NCBI RefSeq assembly: GCF_032050975.1
Contig: NZ_CP116967.1
Coordinates: 620,001 to 684,000, forward strand
Direction of reading: 5' to 3'
Source of the DNA: Candidatus Nitrospira allomarina
GTDB lineage: Bacteria > Nitrospirota > Nitrospiria > Nitrospirales > UBA8639
Length of the DNA: 64,000 nucleotides
Under the pieces are notes generated by a model. It did not search any database. It saw only the letters and a list, made by a program, of their open reading frames with translations, and was not told the origin of the DNA. Position 1 is the first letter of the stretch; every line of letters starts with the position of its first letter. A program made the translations under genes and the position numbers. Positions 25,464-33,521 of the stretch are shown here, piece after piece.

Positions 25464-25922
25464 ATGAACAAGTTTCCTATCAAAGTCACCTATGGAATTA
25501 TGGCCACAATCGAGCTAGCAAAGCAGGACAGATCCATACCGCTTCAAGCCAAAATCATCGCTCAGCGACAGGGGATACCCTCTCGCTTTATTGAACAAAT
25601 CCTTCAGCACTTGAAACAAGCCGGGATTATTAGGAGCCTTCGAGGAGCACAAGGAGGGTATACCCTGGCACAACACCCCAGTCAGATTTCCCTTGCGGAT
25701 TTAGTCAATTCAATGAATGGGTGGGCGACAGAACCATTGCTCCAACATGGGCACACCAACGGTCATTCGGAAAGCCGACAGGTTCCGAACGTCTTACTTT
25801 CAAATATTTGGCAACAGGTTCAAGAGGCGGAGCAGGCAGTTCTGCGGGGCATTTCCTTACAAAAATTGGTCGAACAATATCAAACGCTCGAAACCCAGCG
25901 CTGCCTGATGTATCATATTTAG
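25464..25922 (+). CDS. Rrf2-family regulator, CymR-like
   Basis: The 152-residue protein has the Rrf2 winged helix: KVTYGIMATIELAKQD, IAQRQGIPSRFIEQILQHLKQAGII and the wing LRGAQGGYTLA. The cysteine triplet that binds a 2Fe-2S cluster in IscR/NsrR is absent; the only Cys lies near the C-terminus. Members without the cluster include CymR, which controls cysteine and sulfur genes in Firmicutes through CysK. The gene lies 101 bases before the sulfate reduction cluster, so it is the likely regulator of those genes. Confidence 0.9.
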   Translation: MNKFPIKVTYGIMATIELAKQDRSIPLQAKIIAQRQGIPSRFIEQILQHLKQAGIIRSLRGAQGGYTLAQHPSQISLADLVNSMNGWATEPLLQHGHTNGHSESRQVPNVLLSNIWQQVQEAEQAVLRGISLQKLVEQYQTLETQRCLMYHI

Positions 25923-26023: not shown

Positions 26024-28534
26024 ATGAGCACCTCACCGGTCACCAGCCACCCTCCTATTCACACGGTTCCGATACCCCAGGAGATTCTTGAAGAAATAGA
26101 AACTTTCGAAGATGAGGTCAATCGCCTGCAATCCGGGGACACTCCAGCCGACGTGTTCAAACCGTTTCGACTCCAATACGGTATTTATGGTCAACGCCAG
26201 GCCGATGTCCAAATGGTCCGGATCAAGATTCCCTTTGGTGGTCTGAACGCCAATCAACTACGCCAAGTGGCAGACATTGCAGATACCTTTGCGACCGGCG
26301 TGGGACATGTCACGACGCGGCAGGATATTCAACTGCACTTTGTTCCCCTCCGCCATGTTGGCACTATCATGCGAAAACTGGCGGAAGTTGGACTCACCAC
26401 TCGGGAAGCCTGCGCCAATACCGTCCGGAATGTCACAGCCTGTGCGTTGGCAGGAGTGTGCCCCGGCGAGGTGTTTGACGTGACACCCTACGCGAAAACC
26501 GTGGCTTATCATTTATTACGGAATCCTCTCAACCAAAGTCTCCCTCGCAAATTTAAGATTGCGTTTTCCGGCTGTAAGCAGGACTGTGCCCTCACCCCCA
26601 TCCACGATGTCGGGCTTCTGGCTGCCCGCAATACTGAAGGGGTTCCGGGGTTCAAAATGGTCGTTGGAGGCGGATTGGGGTCCACTCCGCGTCTCGCCAA
26701 AGTGCTTCATGAATTCGTTCCCATGGAAGAATTGATTCCCGCCATCGAAGCCATGCTCAAGGTATTTGATAATTTAGGCAACCGAAAAAATCGAAGCAAA
26801 GCCCGGATGAAATTTGTCATTGACAAATTGGGGTTTGATGAATTTTCTCAACGATGGAAAGAGACCTACGATGCCATGTTGCAATCCGGCGCCACCAAAC
26901 TTGGATTGAAAACGACCCCGTATCCTGATGATCCTCCCTTGGTGATGCCGACGAAATCCGGGAACGGCACTTCCACCTCAGGCAATGGAAACAGCCACCC
27001 TCATAGCTCAGCACAACATGAAGATCCCTCATCTCAAGAGGCGTTCGATCATTGGTGTGCAACCAATGTGATTACGCAACGCCAGTCAGGCTATAGAACA
27101 GCGGTGGTGAGACTTCCCTCCGGTGATATCACGTCTGAGCAAATGTTTGGACTGGCCGATCTCGCCGAACGGTGGGCCAACGGAAACCTTCGTACCACCA
27201 TCAATCAGAACATCATGGTGCGATGGCTTCCCGAACTGCGTCTCCGGCACTTCTATGACGAACTAGTCGCTCATGGGTTGGGCGACCCTGGAGCCGAAGG
27301 CGTCGCAGATATCGTCTCCTGCCCAGGGACCGACACCTGCGGACTGGGAATCACCTCTTCTAAGGGACTGGCTCGAGCGCTGGCAGAAGTGTTCCCTGCC
27401 GGAAAGATCGCAGAGGACCTGGAAGGGGTGAACGTGAAAATCAGTGGCTGCCACAATTCCTGCGCTCAACATCATATCGCCACAATCGGATTGCATGGAG
27501 TCGGCAAACGCATTGGAGACCATGTGGCGCCAGTGTATGAATTGCACCTTGGGGGACGGGTCAACGGCACTGCCAAAATTGCCCAACTCATTGTGAAGGT
27601 CCCTGCGAAAAACGTCCCCGCTGCCGTCCAGCATCTGCTGGATCTCTATCGCCGGGATAGAAAAAATGGGGAGTCCCTCCTGGCGTTCATTGATCGCACC
27701 GGAAAAATCCAACTAAAAGATGAACTAATCCCCTACACCATTCTTCCCACATATCAAGAGGATCCACAATTCTATATTGACTGGGAAGGCGATGAGGAAT
27801 TTTCGGTTGAGGACCTCGGACCCGGCGAATGCGCCGGCGGCGCGTTGGAGATGATCGACAATCGGATCCTTGAAGCGGAACAGGAACTGTATCAAGCGCG
27901 TCTGTTGGCTGAAAAGCACCAATACGCGTTTGCCATTAACAAAGCCTATCGAGCGGTGGTGGCAGGAGCAAAAGCCATCCTTGTCACAGAAGGGATTGAT
28001 CCGAATACGGATGCCGACACCTTAGCGGAATTTGACAAGTTGATTGTGGCCAAAGGGCTCATGCCGGCGGAATACCACAATCTGGCCCTGACAGTGGGAG
28101 ATCTGGGGAACAAAGACGCCTCGGCTGATCTGACGCAAGGGAAAATCGCATTCACAAAAGGTTTCGTGGATCTCTGCCGGACCGTTTCGGACCAAATCGG
28201 CCAGGACCTCAAGTTGGCTCCTGCTGAATTGGGACATAAATCAACTGAATCAACCAGGACGGTACCTACGTCACCTGACAAGGAACCCTCCCCATCAGGC
28301 GTGCCCGTCTACGACCTGCGGGGCGTGGCCTGTCCCATGAATTACGTGAAAACCAAGTTAAAATTAGAAATGATGGACCACGGTGAACAGTTGGAAGTAT
28401 GGTTGGACGGCGGCGATCCGATTCGCAACGTCCCAGTAAGTCTTCGAAACGATGGACACAATGTGCTCAAACAGGAGCCCATAGACCCTGAAGAGCAGCA
28501 TTTCCGAGTGGTAGTGGAGAAAGTGGAATCGTAA
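26024..28534 (+). CDS. Ferredoxin-type sulfite (nitrite) reductase fused to HEPN-like and TusA domains
   Basis: The 836-residue protein has three parts. Residues about 30-600 are a duplicated siroheme reductase. The N-terminal half holds CALAGVC and GCKQDC, the C-terminal half holds CPGTDTC and GCHNSC; each set has the C-x5-C and C-x3-C spacing of a 4Fe-4S/siroheme site. Residues about 630-750 are all helical and look like a HEPN-type bundle. The last 80 residues are a TusA sulfur-carrier domain with YDLRGVACPMNYVKTKLKLE (the CPxP-like Cys). Context with cysH, cysD and cysN argues for sulfite as substrate, though nitrite cannot be excluded. Confidence 0.9.
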   Translation: MSTSPVTSHPPIHTVPIPQEILEEIETFEDEVNRLQSGDTPADVFKPFRLQYGIYGQRQADVQMVRIKIPFGGLNANQLRQVADIADTFATGVGHVTTRQDIQLHFVPLRHVGTIMRKLAEVGLTTREACANTVRNVTACALAGVCPGEVFDVTPYAKTVAYHLLRNPLNQSLPRKFKIAFSGCKQDCALTPIHDVGLLAARNTEGVPGFKMVVGGGLGSTPRLAKVLHEFVPMEELIPAIEAMLKVFDNLGNRKNRSKARMKFVIDKLGFDEFSQRWKETYDAMLQSGATKLGLKTTPYPDDPPLVMPTKSGNGTSTSGNGNSHPHSSAQHEDPSSQEAFDHWCATNVITQRQSGYRTAVVRLPSGDITSEQMFGLADLAERWANGNLRTTINQNIMVRWLPELRLRHFYDELVAHGLGDPGAEGVADIVSCPGTDTCGLGITSSKGLARALAEVFPAGKIAEDLEGVNVKISGCHNSCAQHHIATIGLHGVGKRIGDHVAPVYELHLGGRVNGTAKIAQLIVKVPAKNVPAAVQHLLDLYRRDRKNGESLLAFIDRTGKIQLKDELIPYTILPTYQEDPQFYIDWEGDEEFSVEDLGPGECAGGALEMIDNRILEAEQELYQARLLAEKHQYAFAINKAYRAVVAGAKAILVTEGIDPNTDADTLAEFDKLIVAKGLMPAEYHNLALTVGDLGNKDASADLTQGKIAFTKGFVDLCRTVSDQIGQDLKLAPAELGHKSTESTRTVPTSPDKEPSPSGVPVYDLRGVACPMNYVKTKLKLEMMDHGEQLEVWLDGGDPIRNVPVSLRNDGHNVLKQEPIDPEEQHFRVVVEKVES

Positions 28535-28540
28535 AACCCC

Positions 28541-29257
28541 ATGGCTCATTTCCTCAGTACCAACCCAACTCCAGAAGAACTCATCGCGGTCAATCGATCC
28601 ATGGAGGGCCAAACTCCTCGGAAGATTGTCGAGACCGCGATTGCGGAATATGGGGGAACGATTATTCTGGCCTGTAGTTTTGGGGCCGAGGATGTTGTTC
28701 TAGCCGATATGATGTTCCGCTCAAATCCAGGCAGCACACTCTTTTATTTGGATACCGATTTTTTATTTCCTGAAACCCATGCCGTTCGGGATCGGATGAT
28801 TCAACACTATCAGCTAAAGGATGATCAGATTATTCAGGTCAAATCTACGCTCAGTCCTTCCGAACAAGCCGCAGAGTTTGGGGAAGCCTTATGGCTGCGG
28901 GATCCCGATCACTGTTGCTCACTGCGAAAGGTTGAGCCTCTCACGCGCATCCTGGCAAAGTATGCAGCGTGGATAACGGGGATTCGGCGTGATCAATCAC
29001 CCACGCGTGCCAATGCCGGTATTGTGGACTGGGATACAAAGTTTGGCCTTGTGAAATTTAACCCCTTAGCCGCCTGGTCATGGGAACAGGTCTGGGAATA
29101 CATTCGCACGAATGCCGTTCCCTATAATGCATTGCATGATCAACACTATCCCAGCATTGGATGTACCCATTGCACCGCACCTGTCATGCCAGGAGAAGAC
29201 CCACGCTCCGGACGATGGAAAAGTTCGGGAAAAACCGAATGTGGGCTTCATCGATGA
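28541..29257 (+). CDS. cysH: Assimilatory adenylyl-sulfate (APS) reductase
   Basis: This 238-residue protein of the PAPS/APS reductase family has the adenylyl binding ILACSFGAEDVVLADM and DTDFLFPET. It carries the CC...CxxC cluster ligands (DHCCSLRK and IGCTHCTAPV), which mark the 4Fe-4S type that uses APS directly. The catalytic Cys is in the C-terminal ECGLHR. It reduces APS to sulfite and AMP using thioredoxin. The gene starts six bases after the siroheme reductase stop. Confidence 0.94.
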   Translation: MAHFLSTNPTPEELIAVNRSMEGQTPRKIVETAIAEYGGTIILACSFGAEDVVLADMMFRSNPGSTLFYLDTDFLFPETHAVRDRMIQHYQLKDDQIIQVKSTLSPSEQAAEFGEALWLRDPDHCCSLRKVEPLTRILAKYAAWITGIRRDQSPTRANAGIVDWDTKFGLVKFNPLAAWSWEQVWEYIRTNAVPYNALHDQHYPSIGCTHCTAPVMPGEDPRSGRWKSSGKTECGLHR

Positions 29258-29336: not shown

Positions 29337-29750
29337 GTGAAAAAAATTGCCGTCATTATTACCAGAGGGGGATGGAACAACCTTTTCCAAGCCTGTGAGT
29401 GGATCGCCTTTGCAGCGGCCAGTGGCATCGAGGTGAGTGGCTATTTTCGAGACGAAGCCGCAGGTCGAATGACCAAAACCAAGATCAAAGAACTCACCAT
29501 GTCCTCGGAGTTTAAAGGGCGAGAAGGCTTTGTTCGTGAACTCTTGAAAAAGGAAGATAAAGCGGACCTCTCGAAACTCATGCAAACCTCTAAAGAAAAA
29601 GGAAACGTCAAATTTGCGGTGTGTACGGATTCTCTGAAATATTTCGGGGTGAAAGTCGAAGAGCTCATTCCGGAATTAGATGAAGTGCAAACCGCCGAGG
29701 CTTTCTGGAAAGAAGCTGTTCTTCCCGCTGACCAGGTTTTGACCTTTTAA
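29337..29750 (+). CDS. DsrE-like family protein
   Basis: The 137-residue protein starts at GTG 29337 after TTGGAGAGC. It has the DsrE/DsrF-like Rossmann-type fold: MKKIAVIITRGGWNNLFQACEWI, ASGIEVSGYFRDEAAG and VKFAVCTDSLKYFG. DsrE-family proteins move persulfide sulfur or act as accessory factors. One Cys (FAVCTDS) sits where some members carry the sulfur. Between cysH and cysD, it probably works with the TusA domain of the reductase. Confidence 0.82.
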   Translation: MKKIAVIITRGGWNNLFQACEWIAFAAASGIEVSGYFRDEAAGRMTKTKIKELTMSSEFKGREGFVRELLKKEDKADLSKLMQTSKEKGNVKFAVCTDSLKYFGVKVEELIPELDEVQTAEAFWKEAVLPADQVLTF

Positions 29751-29764
29751 CCCGGAATCATGGC

Positions 29765-30853
29765 ATGGATCATCTAATTGCAAAAATTGGAAAAGGGCTA
29801 AAGGGGGCCAAGGATTTGACCTGGGATGAGGCCAAGCTTGCTCTGAACGCCATTATTGAAGGGCAAGCCACTGACGTTCAGGTGGGAGCGTTTTTGATGG
29901 CCATGCGTATCAAAACCGAATCCATCAGCGAACTCGCCGCCTTCACCACCACGGTCCGCAGGTGGGCGCCACCGATTCCACTCCCGCATGCCGAAAACAT
30001 TGTGGACCTTCCACTCTATGGAGAAAAACACAACACCATCCATGTGGTCCTCGCCGCAAGTCTTGTCGCGGCTGCAGCCGGCGCAGGTCTCTTCATGCAT
30101 GGCGTAGAAAACCCCGACCTCCTTTACGATCTCCCTCAAGTCCTCCGTCACTTACAGCTTCCTATCGCCAATACTGCGGCTGAAGCAATTGAACATGGCG
30201 CTCAATCGCCCTGGGTGTATATGGATTTAGCCGGATATCATGCACCATTAACCAAATTACTGGACCTGCGTCAGTCGTTCGGATTGCAAAATTTGTCCCA
30301 TCAGGTGTCCAGACTCCTGAACCCTGCCAGGGTCGGCTCACAAGTCATCGGAATTTCCCATCCTCCATACCTGGATAAAATGGTGGAAGCTTTGGACATG
30401 CTGGGCGCGAAACGGGCATTGATAATTCAAGGAGTCGAAGGATTTCCCGAACTGTCCCTTTCCACTCCCTCCTTAGCGCGCGAATTACGAAGCGGGCATA
30501 TTTCATCGTTGGTCTTTCGTCCCGATGATGCCGGGTTCCGATCCGGACCATTTCAAGCCATGAGTTCCACCATCAATGGGCCGGGATCCGGGAACCCCCA
30601 ACATGAAGCCCAATTGATCACGCAATTACTCGTCGATCGCCAGAAAGGCGACCGACGGAACTGGGTGATCATGAATGCAGCCTTACTGATGTATGCCGCA
30701 GGGTTGGCCTCCTCTCTCGCACAAGCCACACCGCTTGCCCAGGATACACTGGATTCCGGAAAGGCCGGAGCGTTTCTTACCGCCTTGGCCCAAGGGCGCC
30801 CTCCACAGTCCACATTCGTTGTCCCCCCTTCACCGGCGGTGGTGCCCGCATGA
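29765..30853 (+). CDS. Anthranilate phosphoribosyltransferase-like protein, TrpD2/YbiB type
   Basis: The 362-residue protein has a helical N-terminus ([33 protein letters not shown]) and a glycosyltransferase family 3 alpha/beta domain. The glycine-rich phosphate loop of true TrpD is replaced here by [19 protein letters not shown], and the active-site HGVEN is kept as FMHGVEN. TrpD2 proteins such as YbiB bind nucleic acid and lack TrpD activity. It overlaps cysD by four bases, so it belongs to the sulfur operon; its role there is unknown. Confidence 0.85.
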
Positions 30854-31650
30854 AGCATATCCGCCAGTTAGAAGATCAAAGCGTCTATATCCTGCGTGAG
30901 GCCTACAAAAACTTTGACAACCTGGCCATGCTGTGGTCCATGGGCAAAGATTCTACGGTGTTGTTGTGGCTGGCCAGAAAAGCATTTTTTGGCCATGTTC
31001 CCTTTCCGTTACTCCATGTCGACACCAGCTATAAAATTCCTGAAATGATTGAATATCGGGATCGCCTCGCACGCGAATGGCGATTAAATCTGATCGTGGG
31101 CCAAAACAAAAAAGCCCTGGCCGAAGGGATGAACCACACAAGGGGACGAGTGGAATGTTGCACCGCCTTAAAAACCCTAGGGTTAAAACAACTGCTGGAG
31201 GAAAAGGGCTACACAGGGGTCATTTTGGGTGTGCGATCGGACGAGGATAGTACCAGGGCGAAGGAACGGTATTTCTCCCCGCGGGACAAAAACAATGAAT
31301 GGGATTTCCGCGATCAGCCCCCCGAACTTTGGGATCAATATAAACTTTCGTTTCCTCCGGGCACCCATATCCGGATCCATCCACTTTTGGATTGGACAGA
31401 GATCAATATTTGGGAGTACATCAAATTAGAAAATATTCCCTTTCTGGATAATCTCTACCTGGATCAAGGCACCGGCAAACGCTATCGCAGTCTGGGATGC
31501 GCCCCCTGTACGACACCAATTGATTCCACCTCGAAAAATGTGGATGAAGTTATCATTGAATTACGCAACACCAAGGTGGCGGAACGGGCAGGACGCGCAC
31601 AAGACGAAGGACGAGGGATGGAACAATTACGTAAAGATGGGTACATGTGA
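30850..31650 (+). CDS. cysD: Sulfate adenylyltransferase small subunit CysD
   Basis: The 266-residue protein has the PP-loop-type ATP pyrophosphatase motif [32 protein letters not shown] and the substrate-binding [13 protein letters not shown]-terminal [10 protein letters not shown] is conserved in CysD. It adenylates sulfate to APS, driven by the GTPase CysN. The ATG overlaps the trpD2-like stop, and the CysD stop overlaps the next start. Confidence 0.96.
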
Positions 31651-33521
31651 ATATGACGGTCACACCAGCCAAAGGCCAATCTCACGACACTCCCCAGGAC
31701 AATTCCATCCAGGAGAGAATGAATATCGTGATCGTGGGTCACGTCGACCACGGCAAATCCACATTATTGGGTCGTCTGTATGCCGACACCGGAACCTTAC
31801 CAACCGGCAAGATTGAAAAAATCCAGGCCATTTGCAAGCAACAAGGCAAAGAATTTGAATACGCCTTTCTTTTTGATGCGTTTTTAGAAGAGCAACAACA
31901 GGGGATCACCATCGACACCGCCCGTACCTTTTTCTCCTGGGGCGGACGACAATACATTATTATTGACGCACCGGGACATAAGGAATTCTTGAAAAACATG
32001 GTGTCAGGTGCCGCTCGCGCCGAAGCGGCGCTCCTGGTCATCGATGCCCTGGAAGGGGTGCGCGACCAATCAAAACGCCATGGGCTGTTGCTCTCCATGT
32101 TAGGAGTCAAACAGGTGACCGTGGTGGTCAATAAAATGGATCTGGTCAATTACCGGGAAGACACCTTCCACGCCATCGAAAAAGAATACCGGGAATTTCT
32201 CACCCAATTGAACGTCATTCCCCAATACGTCATCCCCGCGAGCGCCAAACAGGGCATCAACATCATCAAATCAAGCCCGGAAACCCCGTGGTACACCGGA
32301 CCATCCGTATTGGATTCCCTGGCACATTTTCATCTGGAATCCAAGCGTGCCGAACAAACGCTTCGTCTTCCCATCCAGGATGTGTATAAGTTCGACGCCC
32401 GCCGGATTTTAGTTGGCCGGATCACGGCAGGAAAACTCAAGATTGGGGACCGGCTGGTCTTTTCCCCCTCCAACAAGTCGGCCAATATCGAAACAATTGA
32501 AGCGTTTAATATCGATCCACCGCCAACTCAAGCCGAAGCCGGCCAATCCGTCGGCATTACCCTGGATGAACAAATTTTTGTAGAGCGAGGGGAAATTGCG
32601 ACACACGATAATGCCAGGCCGTTGGTCTCTACCCGAATTCGTGCCAACTTGTTCTGGTTAGGAGGGCGACCCTTAGAAACCCGTCGGCCGTATGTCCTAC
32701 GACTGGCCACCAGAGAAGTCTCCTGCGAAGTGGCCACCATTCATCGCATTGTGGACGCCACCAACTTAGACGACCGACAGACGCAAACCACCGTGAAACG
32801 GAATGAAGTGGCCGATATCACGCTTCGGACCAAATCTCCCATCGCTTTTGATCTCTATGCGCAGTTCGAGACTACCGGCCGCTTTGTGTTGGTGGATGAG
32901 TACGATGTGGCAGGAGGGGGAATCATCACGGAACTGGTCCAAGATGACCAGGAAGATTTTCGAACGGAGGCACGCGAACGGGATTCCGCATGGGTCAAGG
33001 GAGATGTGGGAGCCGAAGACCGGGCCCAATACTATGGACATCGAGCGGCTGTAGTCTTACTTACCGGGCCCGATGTGACCGCGAAAGGATTTCTGGCTCG
33101 GAAACTGGAAACCGTGCTCGTCGCGGAAGGCCGGCATGCCTATCTTCTCGCGCCGGAGAATCTGCAACGCGGACTTGATGCTGATCTCGTTGACACAAAA
33201 CCAGATGAAATCATCCGACGGTTTGGCGAAGTTGTGCGTTTGCTGACCGATACAGGCTCACTGGTGATTTCCACAACCAATGCCCTCAAAGAACCGATGA
33301 AACACATCGTGCAAACCGTGCAAACGTTGGTGAACCCGATCCCGGTCATCACCATCCACATGGCCAAAGATTTACAAGGGCCTCAACCGGATACCGATCT
33401 GATTTTCGCTGGGCCGGAAAATTTCGACGACTGCACCCACCAAATCATTGACTTGCTCAAATCCAGGGAGATCCTCACTGAACCTCCCAGGGGCCGTGCC
33501 GACTTCCAGTACTCCATTTAA
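31647..33521 (+). CDS. cysN: Sulfate adenylyltransferase large subunit CysN with degenerate APS kinase domain
   Basis: The 624-residue protein holds an EF-Tu-like GTPase: G1 [12 protein letters not shown]3 [13 protein letters not shown]4 VVNKMDLV. Beta-barrel domains follow to about residue 440. The last 170 residues align with CysC, but the P-loop GLSGSGKST is replaced by GPDVTAKGF and the catalytic DGDN loop by [13 protein letters not shown] phosphorylation is therefore unlikely. GTG 31647 overlaps the cysD stop; an ATG lies two codons later. CysN powers APS formation by GTP hydrolysis. Confidence 0.93.

Follow-up and report, generated by a model that had tools for sequence, protein, structure and literature searches.

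The window analysed here, a 64,000-nucleotide stretch (positions 620001-684000) of the single-contig, 4.55 Mb genome of Candidatus Nitrospira allomarina, contains a single open frame of 836 amino acids (26024..28534) that joins a siroheme sulfite reductase to a HEPN-fold helical bundle and a TusA domain. This gene and all its neighbours described below lie on the forward strand. The reductase core (residues 1 to ~572; 26024..27739) consists of two pseudo-symmetric halves and was recognised by paired Pfam matches to NIR_SIR (7e-59) and NIR_SIR_ferr (1.1e-35). It is followed by a GPGECAGG loop with Cys603, identified from the alignment (residues 599-606; 27818..27841), the helical bundle (residues ~602-731; 27827..28216), a disordered linker (residues 732-761; 28217..28306) and the TusA domain (residues 762-836; 28307..28531). 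Within the TusA domain, the Cys770 codon (28331-28333) belongs to the motif CPMN, part of ACPMNY at residues 769-774.

A domain search of the C-terminal part returned HEPN at residues 615-674, just above the cut-off (1.2e-5, 25.9 bits versus 22), and TusA at residues 763-833 (2.9e-16). Both matches were present in all 45 relatives scanned. The predicted model of residues 575-836 (pLDDT 72) has long helices and an alpha/beta domain resembling TusA, with the disordered linker between them. In Foldseek the model aligned with the HEPN protein AF_0298 (2hsb) at TMt 0.74 and with E. coli TusA at 0.74-0.79 (0.79 for 3lvj_C). The preliminary description had proposed that reductase, HEPN-like and TusA domains share one chain, and this is confirmed by the single 836-residue frame, the Pfam and Foldseek matches and the conservation of the fusion. 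It had also suggested predicting the full-chain structure. We obtained an AlphaFold model, but its pLDDT of 62 is too low for domain placement; the cysteines could not be positioned, and the model cannot show C770 or C603 reaching the siroheme.

The gene was found in all 37 sampled Nitrospirales genomes, and in 35 of them the protein is full length in one frame. In the other two, one copy is cut by a contig end (G105) and one is in two pieces (G018). A frameshift, sequencing error or assembly chimera joining separate genes is ruled out by the recurrence of the same architecture in dozens of genomes. Fused copies with 42-49% identity occur in further Nitrospirota families (f3, f4, f6 and f13). 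The best 80 matches in the GTDB collection were nearly all titled Nitrospirota, the closest named ones being Nitrospirales MAGs such as NPIRA03 and NPIRA06; one record, titled Nitrosospira, has this operon too. The range of the fusion may extend beyond Nitrospirota. No match to the fused TusA domain was found among the plasmids searched. The TusA domain is present in 125 of 134 aligned proteins, and C770, P771 and N773 are invariant in all 125. The loss of the TusA cysteine in relatives, which had been named as grounds for abandoning the idea, is thus excluded.

Phylogenetic analysis grouped the fusion proteins with reductases from Bacteroidota (Persicobacter, Aureibacter) and Thermus oshimai (support 97/94); the inner branching order of this clade is not settled and some branches are long. 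The Bacteroidota proteins have the reductase and a weak HEPN match, and the Thermus protein is a reductase alone. Both share the GECA(G) motif with the Nitrospirota forms but differ from them in lacking TusA and in the cysteine quartet of the N-terminal half, which is absent in Bacteroidota and partial in Thermus. In one Nitrospirota genome (G069), the reductase-HEPN gene stops cleanly before Sat and has no TusA domain. The reductase must work without a fused carrier, because TusA is missing from all three.

The fusion gene lies in a sulfate-assimilation operon, which in Nitrospirales has the order Rrf2, SiR/HEPN/TusA, CysH, (DsrE-like), TrpD2, CysD, CysN. An Rrf2-family regulator identified by Pfam (25464..25922) is upstream in 73/73 loci with enough upstream DNA. 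CysH of the APS-reductase type (28541..29257) is downstream in 72/72 loci, and its CC and CxxC motifs are found in 106/107. Further downstream are CysD, which is the small subunit of sulfate adenylyltransferase with a PAPS_reduct domain (30850..31650; 63/64 loci), and CysN with a degenerate APS-kinase-like tail (31647..33521; 57/59 loci). The tail is kept as a domain but lacks the canonical P-loop both in the window protein (GPDVTAKG) and in 62/62 relatives. Given the CysH motifs and this CysN tail, the route probably runs from sulfate through APS to sulfite. A TrpD2/YbiB-like protein (29765..30853) is near-universal in the operon (63/64 loci) and was also found in another Nitrospirota cluster (L119); we know of no sulfur link that accounts for its membership. 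The optional DsrE-like protein (29337..29750; Pfam) lies between CysH and TrpD2. Its gene is present in only 15 of 71 clusters, so we reject it as an obligate partner, and its earlier assignment as the next sulfur acceptor does not hold in general.

Sulfate-activation or sulfate-reduction neighbours occur in every lineage with a readable neighbourhood except f6, where none were found at three loci. AprBA and Sat flank the fusion in genomes of f13 and f4, where AprA is above the cut-off of PRK06854. Clusters of the form AprA-AprB-SiR/HEPN/(TusA)-Sat were seen at several loci from other Nitrospirota (L119-L126, L131), where a dissimilatory-type APS reductase apparently serves assimilation. Together, the evidence points to an assimilatory role of the cluster.

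The two NIR_SIR_ferr and NIR_SIR halves with Cx5C and Cx3C ligands place the protein in the siroheme nitrite/sulfite reductase family. C433-x5-C439 and C476-x3-C480 are the usual ligands of the [4Fe-4S]/siroheme centre and are invariant. R99, R135, K176 and K178 (RKFK), which match the positions that bind the anion in sulfite reductases, are also invariant, and RKFK is present in every aligned row except the NirA control. At this position the nitrite reductase 3b0h has RKWN. The lysine alone is no proof of a sulfite reductase, because another nitrite reductase entry (3vlx) has RKWK. An R/R/K/K anion site containing Lys instead of Asn, beside CysH, CysD and CysN, is the pattern of an assimilatory sulfite reductase, and from these residues and their context we infer that sulfite is the substrate. 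A nitrite reductase is unlikely, since the protein has RKFK and is encoded in a CysH operon, and the genome has a NirA-like gene elsewhere (4412312). No DsrB scored above the cut-off in 14 genomes. The enzyme is probably ferredoxin-dependent. A second quartet in the N-terminal half (C140-x5-C146 and C184-x3-C188; 26441..26587, from the alignment) is invariant in the Nitrospirota forms and may bind a second [4Fe-4S] cluster within a single-chain sulfite reductase.

The GPGECAGG loop directly follows the reductase core. Cys603 is present in 132/132 rows covering the position, including Bacteroidota and Thermus, whose protein terminates in GECAV; proteobacterial relatives do not have it. Cys603 is a possible first sulfur acceptor. 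The bundle that follows has the four-helix HEPN fold, as judged from the Pfam matches above cut-off in 45/45 proteins and the match to AF_0298. While the fold proposed earlier for this part is borne out, there is no conserved R-x4-6-H RNase motif: the window protein has only R626-x5-H632, and R626 varies in the alignment. We therefore reject a function as an RNase or toxin. The linker between bundle and TusA domain is predicted to be disordered and measures 23-46 residues in relatives (median 32).

The C-terminal domain has the features that define the TusA family, namely the TusA fold and a Cys-Pro that opens the first helix (C770-P771, invariant). It does not have the CPxP motif of E. coli TusA; all 125 proteins have CPxN. 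Profile scores separated these groups, with at least 98 bits for CPxN TusA versus less than 30 for CPxP and 67-69 for CPIT types. By its sequence, the fused domain belongs to a subtype of TusA-fold proteins other than CPxP. Domains of this subtype also occur as separate genes. In one genome (G139), an 81-residue CPMN TusA is encoded ~50 nt downstream of a reductase-HEPN gene on the same strand. In G069, a CPIN TusA follows an AsrC-like siroheme sulfite reductase, and G017 carries such a pair in addition to a fused copy. The AsrC-like reductases of these two genomes (L186, L192) are 332 residues long and have a ferredoxin insert, and the CPIN-type TusA gene is next to them. CPxN TusA is thus linked with siroheme sulfite reductases in three ways: fused, after a reductase-HEPN gene and after an AsrC-like reductase. 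This tie is not exclusive, as the window's genome has a free CPYN TusA away from sulfur genes. Besides the fusion, that genome has two TusA genes in all, one of which is a canonical CPMP type beside a DsrE-like gene. G139 also contains a 1086-residue frame (L135) that combines a complete two-half siroheme reductase with a NirB-like flavoprotein part, the latter recognised by eye.

We searched the window's genome for genes that could receive the sulfur. A cluster at about 3531082-3536439 (L148 7082-12439), 2.9 Mb from the operon, has the order ThiS-like, CysK, MoeB/ThiF, ThrC, MoaD-like, NIL domain, MoeB/ThiF and JAB peptidase. Both E1-like (MoeB/ThiF) proteins lack a rhodanese domain. The ThiS-like protein ends in GGGA and the MoaD-like protein in GGS; by analogy, the residue beyond the di-glycine points to its removal by the JAB protease, presumably as for HcyS-Ala. 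A JAB protein was found in 16/16 examined genomes with SiR-TusA or SiR-HEPN, and in most loci read its gene adjoins E1 and/or MoaD-like genes. We regard this thiocarboxylate cluster as a better candidate for the next step than the DsrE-like protein. CysE and CysK are above cut-off in this genome, so a free-sulfide route would still be available and its absence cannot be claimed. MetB/MetY-type enzymes (PF01053) gave only weak matches, and no OAH sulfhydrylase was found. HcyBio (PF01837) had no match, and homocysteine formation through this family is rejected.

Comparable gene sets have been described. The HcyS methionine pathway of Wolinella is a biochemical example of such a system. Iyer, Burroughs and Aravind (2006) defined class 4e operons of SirA(TusA)/SiR/PAPS reductase/E1/JAB/ThiS-MoaD genes, in which the E1 proteins are always paired with SirA, SiR, PAPS reductase and ATP sulfurylase, and proposed SirA as a rhodanese substitute (PMC1779556). 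As in class 4e, TusA, SiR, CysH, ATP sulfurylase, rhodanese-less E1, ThiS/MoaD and JAB are here all present in one organism, and sulfate-derived sulfur would end on ThiS/MoaD-type carriers. Unlike in class 4e, a HEPN bundle joins TusA to the reductase in one chain, the carrier, E1 and JAB genes are elsewhere in the genome, and the components form two separate clusters rather than one neighbourhood. The same study reported a SiR-ThiS fusion in Nocardioides and Acidothermus (PMC1779556). It is likewise a siroheme sulfite reductase with a sulfur carrier at its C-terminal end, but the carrier is the ubiquitin-like ThiS (thiocarboxylate) rather than TusA (persulfide), and no HEPN was reported. With these neighbourhoods and this fusion known since 2006 (PMC1779556), the arrangement is less unusual than first thought. 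A literature search, with most subscription literature beyond its reach, found no paper describing the SiR-HEPN-TusA fusion.

Two further systems invite comparison. In the protein from Natronococcus occultus, a haloarchaeon, sulfurtransferase domains are also joined to an RKFK-bearing siroheme reductase, but an N-terminal double rhodanese replaces the C-terminal HEPN-TusA. Its gene is on a plasmid (L165 1646-4045), and an F420-hydrogenase beta-type gene comes after it. DsrAB-DsrC of dissimilatory sulfite reducers would be similar in its way of working only, since there too a cysteine of a carrier protein receives zero-valent sulfur from a siroheme reductase; DsrC is unrelated to TusA and is not fused, and DsrB was below the cut-off here.

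In textbooks, assimilatory sulfite reductase releases hydrogen sulfide. Recently, Cao et al. (2026) reported that four assimilatory SiRs form S0 as their direct product; they proposed DsrC as the carrier for the dissimilatory route only and left the assimilatory carrier open (PMC13188885). A carrier role of the TusA domain close to the reductase is likely because of RKFK, the sulfate-assimilation operon, the invariant cysteine, the long disordered linker and the recurring CPxN TusA, all of them comparative evidence. This part of the earlier interpretation finds support, whereas a general DsrE acceptor does not. We tentatively favour, at slightly below even likelihood, the view that this siroheme sulfite reductase is assimilatory, probably depends on ferredoxin and has a tethered sulfur carrier that delivers persulfide to acceptors. 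CysD/CysN and CysH would make sulfite, which the siroheme would reduce, and a cysteine thiol would take the sulfur, at least partly at the zero-valent level. TusA Cys770 could take it directly, or Cys603 of the GECAGG loop could take it first; transfer from siroheme to C770 is plausible. The TusA domain would then swing on its ~30-residue linker and pass its persulfide on. The likeliest recipients in this genome would be the E1-like enzymes without rhodanese domain, which could form protein thiocarboxylates for the CysK/ThrC cluster. The capture by a thiol, the redox level of the sulfur and the acceptor are all our inferences. A stronger form, in which the direct product is a persulfide on the enzyme's own TusA that feeds thiocarboxylate-dependent cysteine (perhaps homocysteine) synthesis and bypasses free H2S, is possible but rather doubtful. 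The 2.9 Mb between thiocarboxylate cluster and operon speaks against the tethered carrier, as do CysE and CysK, which permit an ordinary sulfide route, and the reductases of Bacteroidota, Thermus and G069, which do without a fused TusA.

Such an ordinary enzyme, a six-electron sulfite reductase releasing sulfide, could be fused to TusA merely for co-expression, with TusA taking cysteine-desulfurase sulfur for tRNA thiolation or cofactor synthesis. CysE and CysK would fit, relatives manage without TusA, and E. coli TusA receives its sulfur from IscS. However, the genome has its two other TusA genes, including the canonical CPMP one beside a DsrE-like gene, and random co-expression would not predict the CPxN type beside two kinds of siroheme sulfite reductase. 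We consider this explanation unlikely. Less probable still is that HEPN and TusA form a docking or oligomerisation module holding the reductase to CysH or an acceptor, or a redox or persulfide sensor, with no sulfur passing through C770. HEPN domains often pair, and the Bacteroidota proteins show that the bundle does something independently of TusA. A scaffold would account less well than a mobile carrier for the strictly conserved C770, P771 and N773 and for the length and flexibility of the linker. A reversed flow seems quite improbable. In it, TusA would supply the siroheme with sulfite or with sulfane sulfur bound to protein, to be reduced to sulfide or, in lineages with AprBA and Sat, oxidised to sulfite and sulfate. 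The AprBA-SiR/TusA-Sat clusters of f13 and f4 do look like the genes of sulfur oxidisers, in which the literature has TusA supplying oxidation pathways, but CysH and GTP-driven CysDN in Nitrospirales favour reduction, no DsrB exceeded the cut-off in 14 genomes and the enzyme is of the assimilatory type.

Under the tethered-carrier reading, this natural SiR-TusA fusion, found throughout Nitrospirales and in other Nitrospirota, offers itself as a candidate for the assimilatory S0 carrier. It makes the claim that assimilatory SiRs yield zero-valent sulfur testable in a single protein (PMC13188885). A TusA match in these genomes need not indicate sulfur oxidation. The fusion points to a possible way for Nitrospira, which are major nitrifiers, to handle their sulfur with no free sulfide involved; if the product is indeed a persulfide, free hydrogen sulfide would be bypassed across a whole order of nitrifiers.
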